Positions 10,681 through 40,895 of a stretch of DNA of 64,000 nucleotides are shown here, in pieces. Position numbers and translations under genes: made by a program. The DNA is from Patiria pectinifera. Taxonomy: Eukaryota; Echinodermata; Asteroidea; Valvatida; Asterinidae. Each line of letters starts with the position of its first letter. Position 1 is the first letter of the stretch. The notes below the pieces were generated by a model. That model was not told where the DNA came from. It made no database searches and saw nothing but the letters and a program-made list of their open reading frames with translations. Location: NCBI GenBank assembly GCA_029964075.1, contig CM057129.1, forward strand, positions 22,683,430 through 22,747,429. Reading direction: 5' to 3'.

Positions 10681-10932
10681 TTCAACTGCCGGAGTTATAT
10701 TACCAGGAGTGAGGAACAACAAACCTAACGTCATGCTGAGATGTAAGGAACATTCAATATCGGTGTCTTGGCTACCAGCACGTACACTTTACCTTCTGCT
10801 GGGTTGGAGCTGACTCATCGTCGGTAAGTCATCGATCTCGCTGTGTTTCTCACGCTAGTTTGACGGCATCGGTCTTCAGTTCCGGACTGGTATTTTTTTC
10901 TGCGTCGTGTGAGAGAAGAAGTGATTGCCAAT

Positions 10933-13011
10933 ATGTTGAAGTTACTTTTGACTGTCGTGGTCACTGTCGTCATCACCGGTGTGTCGTGTGAAGCTGTCGT
11001 GGTGCTGGAACACGAGGAAACGACACTGACGTGCGACATCAGTCCCACAGCGCCTAAAACATCGCCCGTGTTTTGGTATTCCAACTCCTTACTGGAATAC
11101 CTAACAACTGACGATGACTTGATCACGGAATTGCGCGATGCTGCCCCGTCCCTCTACTATCGACTGTCGGTGGAAGGGTCGGTCAGAAGGGGCAGGTACA
11201 ATCTCCGCATCGTCGATGTGAGAGCAGAGGATGCAGGGGATTACGTCTGCGGTTACTACCGAAACGGGGACGAGTGGATCACGGTCAAGACTGTGAGTGT
11301 CGAGGTGCTGATTCCCCCGGGGCGAGAGTTCCCTGCCTGTTCGGCGCTGTCGCCCGCTGACACGCTCCTCCTGCCGGGGATGCTGGTCAACCTGAGCTGC
11401 ATCTCCTACGGTGGGAGTCCCCGTGCTGTTTTGGCTTGGTACCGCGACGGTGTGCCACTGGAGAGCGCAGTGGCTCACGATGGGCTCTGGGTGTACCATC
11501 AACGTCTCATACAGGAAGACGACAGCGGTGTGCAGTTCACATGCCAGGCAACCAGCCGAGCACTGCAAGAGCCGAAGAGCTGTAGCATCGTGCCCTATCG
11601 CAGAGCCCCGCTGTTGTACATCGAGCACGATCACGGTGGTGTGATAAACTCAGGGGATTCGGCAACATTCACCTGCACCAATCAGGAACTTCTCACTCCC
11701 GCCAGCGGTGGTGAGGCGCAGTATCGGTGGTACTTCAATGGAGAACCGGCTGAGGAGAGTAGATCGGGGGTGGTGACGGAAAGCGGGATGTCACTCGTGC
11801 TCGACAACTTAACTTCCATGGACGACAAAGCCGTCGTGTCGTGCGAGAAAGTTGACGAGTTTACAGCCAGGAGTTCGGCATCGATGACAATCTTAGTCGT
11901 CTCTTCGGCGAACCCGATGCTCTTTTACGACGAAAGAGACTCGACTCCATCCGAGAAACCTGCCTCCACGCCTTCGCCTTTCGTAAATGTCAGTCAAGCG
12001 GGGTTTGTCATGTGCATTTTTGGTGCAATCTGTTTCGGGATGTTCTTCATGCTTTTTCTGATCTTAGTCACACGCCTGTTCTGTAACTATGCTCGGAAGC
12101 GCGGCCGACTGGATTTTAATACAGAACGTGAAATTGCCGTCGGATGGCAAAAAGCTCTCAATAACTCGCCTTGTCATGAAGCAAGACAGGACAGCATCAC
12201 CATCATCGATAAACCGACTCGAAACACGCAAGTGCTTACTTTTAAGAAACCCAACGGTGTGGTTGCAAATGGTAACCTCCCGAGGAATGATTGTGCGGAG
12301 TGTTTGAGATGTAGCAACACGGAGAGCAATCTTGCCACCGATGTAGACACACCTTGCCCGGTGGCTTCTTCTGACAGATCCGCTGCTCGTCTCAGTCGAC
12401 AATCGAGGAACGCCGTCTCACAGGACCTCCTTCCAGGTACATCCTCCCGGAGGAAACCTCCACCGCTCAGTCTGTTTAATGAGACCAGGACACCCTTGCT
12501 GTCCCCTTCCTCCATCCCCAGAGCCGGCGGTATGAGGCTGCCTTCCGTTGACCGGGACTACACTGCCTCCATGCCCGATCTGGCCTCTCGCTACTACGGG
12601 GAGCGCGGTCTGCCGGCGACCTGCCCAACAGACCACGATTACGTCAACTTACCCGCCCCGTCCTCCTCCAGAGAAGGATCCGGCAACACCACCCCCTCCT
12701 CCTACGTCAACTGTGAATTTGTGAGCCCTATTCCGCCCACAACTCCAGTGAAGCAAGTTCGTAAACCTTCTTTTGGTACCAACCAGAAGTCGCTGTCGTA
12801 CGCAGAGCTTGATCTACCGAGAACTAGGGAGAGACCGTCCACTCCCGCCACACCAGTGAGCCCGGGCGGCAGCAAAGTACGCGCTGGTAGCGTTTCCGTA
12901 GAACGCACCAAATATGCACAAATCGCTTACGTGTTCAAAGACAGAAGACAACAGAGCCTTCCGTCTGTCAAACTCGTCGGACTTAGCGAGGGGTTTGGGG
13001 AGAGAGTCTGA
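10933..13011 (+). CDS. three-Ig-domain type I membrane receptor with ITIM/ITSM-like tail, single exon
   Basis: The frame opens at ATG 10933 (an upstream in-frame extension has no ATG) and gives 692 residues. Residues 1-19 are a hydrophobic signal peptide (MLKLLLTVVVTVVITGVSC). Three Ig-type domains follow with canonical Cys/Trp/Cys at about 34/48/106, 156/169/204 and 248/266/304; the first has the classical DAGDYVC. N-glycosylation sequons are near 153, 292 and 352. One transmembrane helix spans about 358-382, followed by a basic stop-transfer (RLFCNYARKR). The tail of about 300 residues carries DYVNL (Tyr 570) and SYVNC (Tyr 591), which match Grb2 SH2 sites (YxN). It also has LSYAEL (Tyr 623), an ITIM ([ILVS]xYxx[LVI]), and TKYAQI (Tyr 661), an ITSM (TxYxx[VI]). 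There are also Ser/Pro stretches and RRQQSLP, a 14-3-3-like site. In vertebrates such motifs recruit SHP-1/SHP-2 or adaptors. No intron interrupts the frame, which is unusual for an Ig receptor. Codon use is GC-richer than the flanks. Orthology is not assigned. Confidence 0.88.
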   Translation: MLKLLLTVVVTVVITGVSCEAVVVLEHEETTLTCDISPTAPKTSPVFWYSNSLLEYLTTDDDLITELRDAAPSLYYRLSVEGSVRRGRYNLRIVDVRAEDAGDYVCGYYRNGDEWITVKTVSVEVLIPPGREFPACSALSPADTLLLPGMLVNLSCISYGGSPRAVLAWYRDGVPLESAVAHDGLWVYHQRLIQEDDSGVQFTCQATSRALQEPKSCSIVPYRRAPLLYIEHDHGGVINSGDSATFTCTNQELLTPASGGEAQYRWYFNGEPAEESRSGVVTESGMSLVLDNLTSMDDKAVVSCEKVDEFTARSSASMTILVVSSANPMLFYDERDSTPSEKPASTPSPFVNVSQAGFVMCIFGAICFGMFFMLFLILVTRLFCNYARKRGRLDFNTEREIAVGWQKALNNSPCHEARQDSITIIDKPTRNTQVLTFKKPNGVVANGNLPRNDCAECLRCSNTESNLATDVDTPCPVASSDRSAARLSRQSRNAVSQDLLPGTSSRRKPPPLSLFNETRTPLLSPSSIPRAGGMRLPSVDRDYTASMPDLASRYYGERGLPATCPTDHDYVNLPAPSSSREGSGNTTPSSYVNCEFVSPIPPTTPVKQVRKPSFGTNQKSLSYAELDLPRTRERPSTPATPVSPGGSKVRAGSVSVERTKYAQIAYVFKDRRQQSLPSVKLVGLSEGFGERV

Positions 13012-13171: not shown

Positions 13172-13659
13172 TATTCACGAATGAAAAGCACGCGCTCGCA
13201 AATAGGCTATATGCGTCAAGGCAGCGTTAGAGGGCAATGATTTTTGTATGATTGCGTAGATAATTATAAGGAACGAGTAAACCTTCATTGTTGCTAGATT
13301 CAAATAACAAGGAATATCATCTGAGAGCCCGGAACGCAAAAGGTCTTTTAAAACTGTTGGTCGTCTTTTACACCTTTTTTTTCACAGCGTACATTTGTAT
13401 TTTCCTTTATATTGAGCATTACCATAAATTTCAAAATTATTACAATGTATTTTCTTAAGGACATGCTGCGTATCAAGGCCCTCGTCCAAGGTGGTCATGA
13501 CGTCATACCATGACGCTATAAACTCCAAGAAACCAATGATTTAGTCAGTGCATTTGTTGCCCTACTAGTCAAGAAATAAGGCCATGGGATGTACATAGTG
13601 TAAAATGTCTTTCCCTTTTCGAGGAGGGGGTGTACCCATGAACCTGTTGCCGTTGTTAA
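13172..13659. other. downstream flank of the receptor gene
   Basis: AT-rich spacer. It contains a CRE-type palindrome, ATGACGTCAT at about 13497, with no promoter or exon context around it. Confidence 0.4.
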
Positions 13660-14179
13660 AGGGAATGTACATCATTGGCTTTTGCTGTAATTTTAAGAAA
13701 TGAACTATTTGAGGGGTTTATAATAGATAAAATATTGTTCCACTGACATGTTTGAAGTTTTGTGATCGAAAATGCTGGAAAAACCAAGAAAAACAAAAAT
13801 GTTCAAGTAGTCTGGTTCCCTGACTCCACTAAAGATGAAATGGATCAATTTATAGATGCCGGAAATTTGTAAGGTAATAGAACCAGTCTAGCTGGCCTGC
13901 ACCCGTTCATGAACATGTAACCATTAGCAAACACAATTTTGACTGAACAAAAAGGTACATTTGGAGCAGTAGTTGAAAAATAGTTAGGTTTTTCCAACGG
14001 TGGTCGGCTGACCACCGTTGTAAATTTATACAAAATGCCACTTTTCTTGAAAATGACTTCACACCTGGTGCCATAGTTTTACAGGATGCTTTAGACTGGC
14101 ATTTACCAACATCCTAGTATATTTTGTAAAAAAAAAAGTACTTCTGTTTTTCGATATTTTCAAATGTTGTATATTCCCT
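13660..14179 (-). mobile_element. MITE family A, copy 2
   Basis: It lies between TTAA at 13656-13659 and TTAA at 14180-14183. The termini AGGGAATGTAC and GTATATTCCCT are inverted relative to each other. It runs in the opposite orientation to copy 3 and shares the internal near-palindrome CAACGGTGGTCGG...CCACCGTTG near 13995-14020. No coding capacity, so it is a TTAA-type non-autonomous element. Confidence 0.78.
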
Positions 14180-14507
14180 TTAATGTCTAAAGATTTAAAA
14201 CTAAAATTAATAATTTGGTATATACTGTGTAAATTTTGTTTCCTTAAACATTGTACAGAAGGGTATATATAATTCACATTTTTATATTTTAATTTGAAAT
14301 GACAAATATCACCACTCAAAGTCGGCGTTAACATGACACAGTTTTCACTATTGTATGAAATACTGTAATTTACATGTACGAGGTTTAAAGAAGTTTAAAA
14401 CACAAGCCAAGAAGAAAGATTCTATAAGACAAAGGCTGTACAACATGCAAAGGTCTGTTAATGAACAAATAGTCAAAATGTTTTCCAACAATTTCTCTGG
14501 ACATCTA

Positions 14508-25383: not shown

Positions 25384-26166
25384 CATCAGCGTTCACGCAA
25401 TTTTCCCCCTCCTTTCTACAAGTGGCACTCGGCCAAGAATCGTGGTGACCGTCGTCATTCCGGTGCGTGGCCCCTCGTCTGCCGTGTTTCCTGCCCTCCC
25501 CCCTTTTCCCTTCTGCACCTGCTGACATTTGAGAGAAGCGGTTAGTGGCACTCTGCCCTGGGCACCGAACCGCTGTGCCTTACAAGCCACACTCTTGCCC
25601 AGCACCAACAAAATTTGGCCACAGGCTACTTCGGAAAAGATACCGCTTAATTTCCCCCTTTGTGGGAAATTACACGTTAAAATATACACAGACCACCCAC
25701 CAGATGTATCACACAGCACTTAGCCATTTTTCCTACCGTCTTAAGAATTCTGAGACATCACAAGTGTCAGGGGCAATTTTTGAAATAAATAGAGTCAGTA
25801 AAGCCTTATATGAAAATGAAGTTGCTTCAGGACCCCAACACCTAAAACTTAAAAACTTTTTAGCTGCTCATTTTGCCGCTCTTTCGGCTAGTGGAGGCCG
25901 AAACTTTTTGAAATTGTCCCGGTACAAATAAGGTTAGGATCGAAAATAGGGTTAGAAACTGTAAACATATGAAAGTTCCTGAATGCCCTCTAAACCTGAA
26001 GCATCCTACACTTTCCTTTGCTGCACCCAGAGAGCAGAGGAATATCAGCTAGTCTGGGAATTACTAGGAGACTGGCAAATGATCAACATTGATTTCAACT
26101 ATCAATCCACATAAGGAAACTTGCATGAGTTTGCTTCAAAACATGTAAAGGTAAACAATGAAAATT
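25384..26166. other. CpG-richer block, no gene called
   Basis: Positions 25390-25560 are C-rich with an overlapping 128-codon frame (25545-25931) that has no domain and no convincing splice sites. Confidence 0.35.
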
Positions 26167-26238
26167 GACTGGAGCAGTGTTCGAACCTGCGACCTCCGGA
26201 TTGCTGTTCCAGTGCTCTACCAACTGAGCTACCCACCC
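26167..26238 (-). tRNA. tRNA-like sequence, Ala(AGC)-like, probably a pseudogene
   Basis: Read on the reverse strand the 72 bases fit a full cloverleaf in length: 7-bp acceptor (with G-U pairs and one G-G mismatch), perfect D stem GCTC/GAGC, 5-bp anticodon stem CTGGA/TCCGG, five-base variable loop, and T loop TTCGAAC on a stem with one G-A mismatch. The loop ACAGCAA would give anticodon AGC, but the base before it is C instead of the universal T. A TTTT run follows two bases after the 3' end. The mismatches suggest a pseudogene or SINE head. Confidence 0.5.
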
Positions 26239-40379: not shown

Positions 40380-40895
40380 GATTCATCACAAGGCAATTAC
40401 AAGTCATCACAAGTCATCGCAAGGCAATCACAAGTTAGCACAAGGCAATCACAAGTCATCCAGTCGCAAGTCAAGTGACAAGCTGTTCAAGTAAACTGTG
40501 ACAAAGACATTCCTTTTTCATCGTTTGTATCCTGTTACTTTAATTGTGACTTGACTTGCGATTGACTCGAGATACATATGACTTGTGATTGACTTGAGAT
40601 ATGGCTTGCAATTGACTTGAGGTAAATGTGTATGGCCTGTGATTGACTTGAGATATGGCTTGTGATTGACTTGAGATATGGCTTGTGATTGACTTGAGAT
40701 ATGGCTTGTGATTGACTTTGAGATATGGCTCTTGATTGACTTGAGATATGGCTTGTGATTGACTTGGGATATGGCTTGTGATCGACTTGGGATATGGCTT
40801 GTGATCGACTTGGGATATTGGCTTGTGACTGACTTGAGGTATGGCTTGTGATTGACTTGAGATATGGCTTGTGATTGTCTTGATAAATTAACAAA
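40380..40895. repeat. opposed minisatellite arrays
   Basis: The left part (40380-40480) repeats CAAGTCATCACAAG-type units. The right part (40545-40890) is an array of about 14 units of roughly 23-24 bp built from GATTGACTTGAGATATGGC and TTGT. The right unit contains the complement of the left words (GACTTG, CTTGTGATTG), so the two arrays can pair as a long imperfect hairpin with a 65-bp spacer. Open frames of 119-134 codons on the reverse strand are produced by the repeat and are not genes. Confidence 0.85.

Follow-up and report, generated by a model that had tools for sequence, protein, structure and literature searches.

The 64,000-nucleotide stretch of the Patiria pectinifera genome analyzed here (GenBank assembly GCA_029964075.1, contig CM057129.1, forward-strand positions 22,683,430 to 22,747,429; hereafter the window) contains a single-exon coding region for a type I immunoglobulin (Ig) receptor of 692 residues. 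Its cytoplasmic tail carries an immunoreceptor tyrosine-based inhibitory motif (ITIM) followed by an immunoreceptor tyrosine-based switch motif (ITSM). A first-pass annotation, made from the sequence alone, had proposed the frame, coordinates, and length of this gene, and an open reading frame (ORF) check agrees with it on all three (Table 1); the frame is open from position 10864 of the window, behind an in-frame stop at 10861. The predicted signal peptide, three Ig domains, and single transmembrane helix were recovered by hydropathy and Pfam. The Ig cysteine pairs, described earlier as intact, are invariant (C34/C106, C156/C204, and C248/C304) across 20 aligned sequences from the 41 family members introduced below, as are C136, C217, W48, and W266. 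The C2-set_2 match of Pfam spans residues 151 to 214, and no sushi domain was matched by Pfam in the window gene or in the seven relatives scanned. By sequence, the ectodomain resembles a wealth of Ig proteins (286 distinct Protein Data Bank [PDB] sequences at E≤1), with FCRL5, CD276, KIRREL1, CADM4, and butyrophilins as the leading matches. The receptor had also been described as lacking an intron, which can be said of the coding region alone: putative splice signals of the 5′ untranslated region (UTR) lie upstream, and a 5′ UTR intron is possible because donor-like and acceptor-like signals precede the ATG. The window holds no second copy of the gene, as all 41 of 41 tblastn hits fall inside its ORF.

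The tail comprises 312 residues and nine tyrosines. Just as first reported, LSYAEL (Y623) and TKYAQI (Y661) lie 38 residues apart, preceded by DYVNL and SYVNC, and both members of the ITIM-ITSM pair sit in the cytoplasmic tail behind the single transmembrane helix. When this tail was shuffled 200,000 times, 35% of the shuffles contained an ITIM, 5.7% an ITSM, 1.8% the two together, and 0.15% the full set of four sites. A lone ITIM carries little weight, since more than a third of shuffles yield one, and the motif set of the window gene, taken alone, is indicative but short of compelling. The strength of the motif pair derives from its recurrence in paralogues.

To establish the extent of the family, the 613.5-Mb assembly that holds the window was searched at the protein level (E≤0.001). 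This search matched 56 places, the window gene and at least 55 others; 64 of the 117 candidates seen were scored, so that all family counts are lower bounds. Because introns are not modeled in this search and long frames rank above short ones, a diverged relative with short exons could escape it. Among the 55 other matches, 54 contain no internal stop, and the open frames around them span 362 to 1,270 amino acids; in the remaining match (L024) one stop breaks the frame, and the open part spans 323 amino acids. Against these long frames stand the SH2 matches in the same genome, 62 of 70 of which occupy frames no longer than 189 amino acids, as intron-bearing genes of the usual kind would. From this contrast, the single-exon state looks like a trait of the whole family, with expansion by duplication, and the lineage-specific intronless family that the first-pass annotation had considered is thus supported within this one genome. 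Members cluster on contigs C1 (4.79 to 4.84, 8.92 to 8.95, and 9.23 to 9.30 Mb), C9 (9.80 to 9.98 Mb), and C12 (2.35 to 2.37 and 14.18 to 14.22 Mb).

We analyzed 41 of these genes, namely, the window gene (L001) and 40 of its 55 paralogues, the other 15 being left out. A signal-like N terminus is present in 37 of the 41, and a transmembrane helix past residue 250 in 39. The ratio of nonsynonymous to synonymous substitution rates (dN/dS) is 0.26 to 0.62 for the ectodomain in all 17 paralogue pairs; for the transmembrane helix and tail it is 0.08 to 0.92 in 15 pairs and not computable in 2. These pairs, from which the window gene is absent, place the paralogous proteins under selection. An ectodomain tree of the 41 sequences, whose bootstrap values had not settled, leaves the placement of the window gene unresolved. 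Two members on contig C332 are unusual: L014 and L018, in frames of 715 and 1,270 amino acids, combine long ectodomains with very short tails (14 and 7 residues) and could be decoys or adaptor-dependent partners.

The crucial evidence for the window gene comes from the recurrence of its ITIM-ITSM pair. Thirty-six tails were compared, after L014, L018, and L024 (tails below 40 amino acids) and L044 and L048 (no transmembrane helix found) were dropped, and a tandem was defined as an ITIM followed by an ITSM within 15 to 45 residues. Seven tails carry it: that of the window gene and those of L016, L017, L019, L027, L029, and L032. Across 5,000 shuffles the mean count was 0.049 and the maximum 2, although the genes are related and the events are not independent. 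A single paralogue tail of 55 amino acids, used alone as a query (E≤10), retrieved seven places, four of them known and three of them new module genes (L055, L056, and L057), which lie on C21, C12, and C6. All three are single-exon genes with Ig domains by Pfam and a C-terminal module, and by eye each has a hydrophobic N terminus and a transmembrane helix; the exact pair is found in L055 and L057, and L056 is off consensus at both sites. The PD-1-like layout that the first-pass annotation had recognized is thereby supported and is conserved in a subset of paralogues (7 of 36 tails, plus L055 and L057). On the ectodomain tree, five of the seven tandem-bearing genes fall inside one supported clade of 10 that also includes five genes lacking the pair, and L001 and L029 fall outside it; the tandem labels require 2 changes against a shuffled mean of 1.9.

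The composition of the module is constrained. In all seven tandems, which were selected without requiring it, each tyrosine of the closest pair has alanine as the next residue. We also compared 12 modules, picked by eye and centered on Tyr-Ala, with the variants L012 and L015 among them. In every module D or E occupies +2 and +4 of site 1; at site 2, T is found at −2 in 10 modules and I is found at +3 in 10; and the tyrosines are 20 to 38 residues apart. In five related tails (L016, L017, L019, L027, and L032), 81 of the 108 positions flanking the two tyrosines, the tyrosines themselves excluded, are identical, compared with 471 of 1,516 elsewhere, a contrast that arises partly by construction because these tails were selected for the pair; positions around other tyrosines, tallied apart, are identical at 28 of 44. 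We read the flank identity as suggesting that the two motifs are under selection. Conservation does not extend to all four tyrosine motifs that the first-pass annotation had emphasized: the pair is kept in the paralogue subset, but the YVN sites lie at different positions in other tails, and we reject conservation of the full set on that account. YVN occurs in three other tails (L033, L043, and L047) in different contexts, and YxN sites are generally enriched: 16 of 36 tails have at least one, where shuffles give 8.5, and 6 of 36 have two or more, where shuffles give 1.3. Since the YVN positions differ while the ITIM-ITSM pair recurs, the tail of the window receptor is a conserved two-motif module with variable extras.

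We also compared these tails with known phosphatase-binding tails. The human PD-1 tail peptide, as printed in PMC7078208, has its two tyrosines 25 residues apart. Aligned with the 36 tails, it scored highest with the window gene (48) and then with L016 (42), scores that 1 and 9 of 5,000 shuffles reached, respectively. With 500 shuffles for each tail, six tails reached a P value of ≤0.05, namely, L034 and all but two of the seven tandem tails. When nine modules were combined into a profile, its best PDB match was GAB1 (E = 0.037), and MPZL1 ranked fifth of eight (E = 1.2), the remaining six matches being ghrelin receptor constructs. MPZL1 is a ligand of SHP2. The match to GAB1 and MPZL1 is weak because one query of three gives it, and we treat the resemblance as a possible functional likeness and claim no homology of the tails. 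The tandem site of GAB1 is cited as an SHP2 activation motif in the pertinent part of PMC12905495, and SHP2 activators are described in PMC10231330, in the section that concerns them, as a pair of SH2-binding motifs joined by a flexible linker. An excerpt of PMC8631942 states that SHP1 recruitment is permitted by an alanine at ITIM pY+1, the residue present in BTLA and SIRP-alpha, but not by the glycine of PD-1.

Taken together, these data make it reasonably probable that the window gene encodes an inhibitory receptor of the Src-kinase/SHP type, with a tandem ITIM-ITSM, in a large single-exon Ig family. In such a receptor, the outer Ig domains would be bound by a ligand that is probably carried by another cell or by a microbe, and the receptor would cluster, whereupon a Src-family kinase would phosphorylate Y623 and Y661. 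Both SH2 domains of an SHP1- or SHP2-type phosphatase (possibly SHIP) could then dock on the doubly phosphorylated tail, and the recruited phosphatase would damp an adjacent activating receptor, possibly a family member with another tail; the two YVN sites of the window gene may add Grb2 binding. We infer the phosphorylation, SHP binding, inhibitory sign, and immune role from sequence. The wiring is plausible outside vertebrates because an amphioxus ITIM receptor binds SHIP1 and SHP and because Botryllus and Hydractinia receptors carry ITIM-type motifs. Several observations weigh against this interpretation. The spacing of 38 residues in the window gene is the widest among the 12 modules, the window tail as sole query retrieves no other module in the genome, and its YVN sites, judged by eye, match no other tail in position. 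The strict pair is absent from 29 of the 36 tails; L029 (P = 0.056) and L027 (P = 0.10) have the tandem and fail the PD-1 comparison, and L034 (P = 0.046) has none and passes it. PDB searches with the window module alone and with six modules excluding it gave no match, and although the genome holds the 70 SH2 matches, the SHP-type partner itself is a prediction. Another place retrieved with the window tail, L054 (E = 5.6), was discarded, as it has no Ig features by eye.

The same family could instead signal positively, with the tandem acting as a scaffold for SHP2 and Grb2, akin to the bisphosphoryl activation motif of GAB1, in adhesion or growth signaling with no immune brake. We regard this as unlikely but deserving of serious consideration. 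GAB1 tops the PDB matches of the nine-module profile, the window gene holds two Grb2-type YVN sites, its ectodomain is similar to the adhesion proteins KIRREL1 and CADM4 as well as to FCRL5, CD276, and butyrophilins, and SHP2 also promotes Ras/MAPK signaling, as noted in part of PMC10231330. Site 2, however, fits the ITSM consensus at both −2 and +3 in 10 of 12 modules each, and a large, clustered family with exchanged tails, as seen here, is customary for immune rather than developmental receptors. A further alternative, an adhesion family resembling nectins, KIRREL, and CADM in which the tails serve mainly for trafficking and the Yxx-hydrophobic sites are endocytic AP2 signals, strikes us as improbable. 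Such sites are indeed enriched (90 against 41.8 across 500 shuffles, maximum 59), and the ectodomain matches are generic Ig proteins, but AP2 signals do not need the T at −2, the Ala at +1, or the C-terminal pairing that are conserved here.

Two further explanations are very improbable. The first-pass annotation had raised retroposition of a multi-exon parent, and the gene might accordingly be a recent retrocopy, possibly a pseudogene; its coding region is free of introns, and a parent with short exons could escape a search that favors long frames and scored 64 of the 117 candidates. As a local event, however, retroposition is not supported, because the genome matches occupy long frames, unbroken in 54 of 55. 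Neither a short exon nor an intron-containing paralogue is found among the matches listed at that threshold, paralogue dN/dS is below 1, and in 3.5 kb scanned downstream the sole run of at least 10 adenines is at 14128, more than 1 kb away. Within the limits of the search, we reject a retrocopy or pseudogene on the long unbroken frames and the paralogue dN/dS. Chance occurrence of the motifs in a long tyrosine-containing tail draws on the frequency with which shuffling yields a lone ITIM, but it is contradicted for the ITIM-ITSM pair, which recurs in paralogues and whose tail-only query retrieves further module genes; the two YVN sites may be due to chance.

Beyond the first reading, the family contains recombined pairs of ectodomains and tails. 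L017 and L020 are 79% identical in the ectodomain and have unrelated tails (27%), whereas L020 and L021 are 92% identical in the tail and 54% in the ectodomain; the contrast recurs between L019 and L021 (67% versus 24%). In sliding DNA windows, L020 and L017 are 86 to 98% identical from −1094 to −254 relative to the transmembrane helix and 42% identical at −74. Conversely, L020 and L021 are 49 to 58% identical from −1089 to −561, 60 to 87% over the third Ig domain, and 93 to 98% from −33 to +327. The breakpoint of the exchange among these three genes is sharp and falls before the transmembrane helix, within either the stalk or the third Ig domain. Genes with ITIM-ITSM tails (L016, L017, L019, and L027) lie together at 8.92 to 8.95 Mb of C1, and the other tail type is found at 9.23 to 9.30 Mb of C1 (L020, L021, L022, and the early-stopped L024) and on C21 (L025). 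This second type carries YxxV and YxxL sites and has no strict immunoreceptor tyrosine-based activation motif (ITAM). A strict ITAM is present in 3 of the 36 tails (L009, L023, and L026; shuffled mean 0.47, maximum 5, P = 0.011). An ITAM-like pattern that allows V, chosen post hoc, is present in 10 of 36 (shuffled mean 1.1, maximum 6), including L020, L021, and L025 but also the ITIM-ITSM tails L027 and L032.

This exchange matches the anatomy of vertebrate paired receptors. We tentatively suggest a germline paired-receptor system, in which single-exon Ig genes with PD-1/BTLA-like ITIM-ITSM tails coexist with closely related ectodomains on other tyrosine tails, register being kept by juxtamembrane recombination; it would be an independent counterpart of the inhibitory and activating pairs of the KIR, SIRP, and CEACAM type, and the window gene would be one of its inhibitory members, a divergent one, though this is somewhat less than an even prospect. 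Homologous ectodomains on different tails are seen for paralogues, and the window gene has no close partner among the 41 sequences. Two other tails are distinctive. That of L025 (C21, 30.81 Mb) contains five near-identical repeats of 24 to 25 residues, four with SEYLEL and one with SEYLGL, apparently a tyrosine motif amplified in tandem; that of L009 has 19 tyrosines in its 285 residues, several of which stand in YE-P contexts, an arrangement that should suit SH2 adaptors rather than phosphatases.

The window gene shares with PD-1 and BTLA an ITIM followed by an ITSM near the C terminus, at comparable spacing (25 in PD-1, 20 to 38 here), and with BTLA, as the excerpt cited above has it, alanine at ITIM pY+1. 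It differs from both in its three Ig domains, long tail, and single coding exon, and the single V-type Ig ectodomain of the PD-1/CD28 family is not what it has. According to the relevant part of PMC11599192, acorn worm, sea urchin, sea squirt, and lancelet have yielded no convincing homologue of CD28, CTLA4, or ICOS. Vertebrate paired receptors such as CEACAM1/CEACAM3 and Siglec-11/16 likewise have near-identical ectodomains and differing tails, and the portions of PMC5112662 and PMC5701461 on these pairs describe ectodomains kept alike by recombination; in the sea star family, unlike these, the breakpoint falls within one exon and not between exons. Botryllus FcoR and Hydractinia Alr are also nonvertebrate Ig-superfamily families with ITIM-type tails, carried by candidate allorecognition receptors according to the passages of PMC12065747 on them. 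Those passages do not describe a tandem ITIM-ITSM or single-exon genes for either, and FcoR has a sushi domain and another Ig order (V - sushi - C2 - C2), which the window gene does not have. The amphioxus receptor BbLcLRR, another nonvertebrate ITIM receptor, is phosphorylated by Lck and binds SHIP1, and to a lesser extent SHP1/2, in human T cells, as the pertinent section of PMC8211107 relates; it differs in its leucine-rich repeat ectodomain and in the extracellular position of its ITSM-like site. An intronless Ig-superfamily gene has a precedent in Aplysia AcFREP1, an invertebrate gene counted with that superfamily in an excerpt of PMC11999971; its product is a fibrinogen-related protein, for which that excerpt describes no receptor tail.

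The functional class to which the window gene would belong, the ITIM/ITSM inhibitory receptor, is already known. The control of vertebrate lymphocytes is the usual setting in which tandem ITIM-ITSM tails and paired receptors are discussed. A literature search that reached few subscription journals found no single-exon three-Ig family with an ITIM-ITSM end and tail exchange. If our interpretation is true, checkpoint-type wiring arises or persists outside the CD28, Siglec, and KIR families of vertebrates. The recombined pair would be expected to bind the same ligands and to give different outputs.

Table 1. Features of the window, with positions counted from its first nucleotide.
Feature	Position	Strand	Basis or remark
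Putative 5′ UTR splice signals: donor-like GTAAGT at 10824, acceptor-like TTTCTCACGCTAG at 10846-10858	10824..10858	+	Pattern scan; upstream of ATG
Coding region, type I Ig receptor, 692 amino acids	10933..13011	+	Single exon; ATG at 10933, stop at 13011
Signal-peptide-like N terminus, residues ~1-20	10933..10992	+	Hydropathy
Ig domain 1, V-set, residues 22-126, C34-C106	10996..11310	+	Pfam V-set, E = 4.6e-9; invariant Cys
Ig domain 2, C2-type, residues 144-214, C156-C204	11362..11574	+	Pfam Ig_2, C2-set_2; invariant Cys
Ig domain 3, residues ~237-310 (limits approximate), C248-C304	11641..11862	+	Pfam Ig stretches; invariant Cys and Trp266
Transmembrane helix, residues ~355-383	11995..12081	+	Hydropathy peak 2.78
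DYVNL, Grb2-type YxN site, Y570	12637..12651	+	Tail motif scan; position not conserved in paralogues
SYVNC, Grb2-type YxN site, Y591	12700..12714	+	Tail motif scan; position not conserved in paralogues
ITIM LSYAEL, Y623, first half of conserved module	12793..12810	+	Motif scan; paralogue recurrence
ITSM TKYAQI, Y661, second half of conserved module	12907..12924	+	Motif scan; paralogue recurrence
tRNA-Ala (AGC)	26166..26238	−	
23-bp satellite, ~11 copies	40631..40883		

Elsewhere in the window, a proline-rich ORF on the forward strand (1757 to 2476) contains PPSY and a 27-bp tandem repeat of about 12 copies (2063 to 2402) with units of the YPPPAGA type; it has no Pfam match and, as a guess, could represent the final exon of a gene for a WW-binding protein. 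In the same genome, 12 partial SH2 matches lie on one strand of C14 between 13.05 and 13.56 Mb and appear to be a tandemly expanded SH2 gene family. Finally, a dispersed repeat, 72 to 90% identical among copies, occupies approximately 13652 to 14183 of the window and is also found near the family members L013, L021, and L037.

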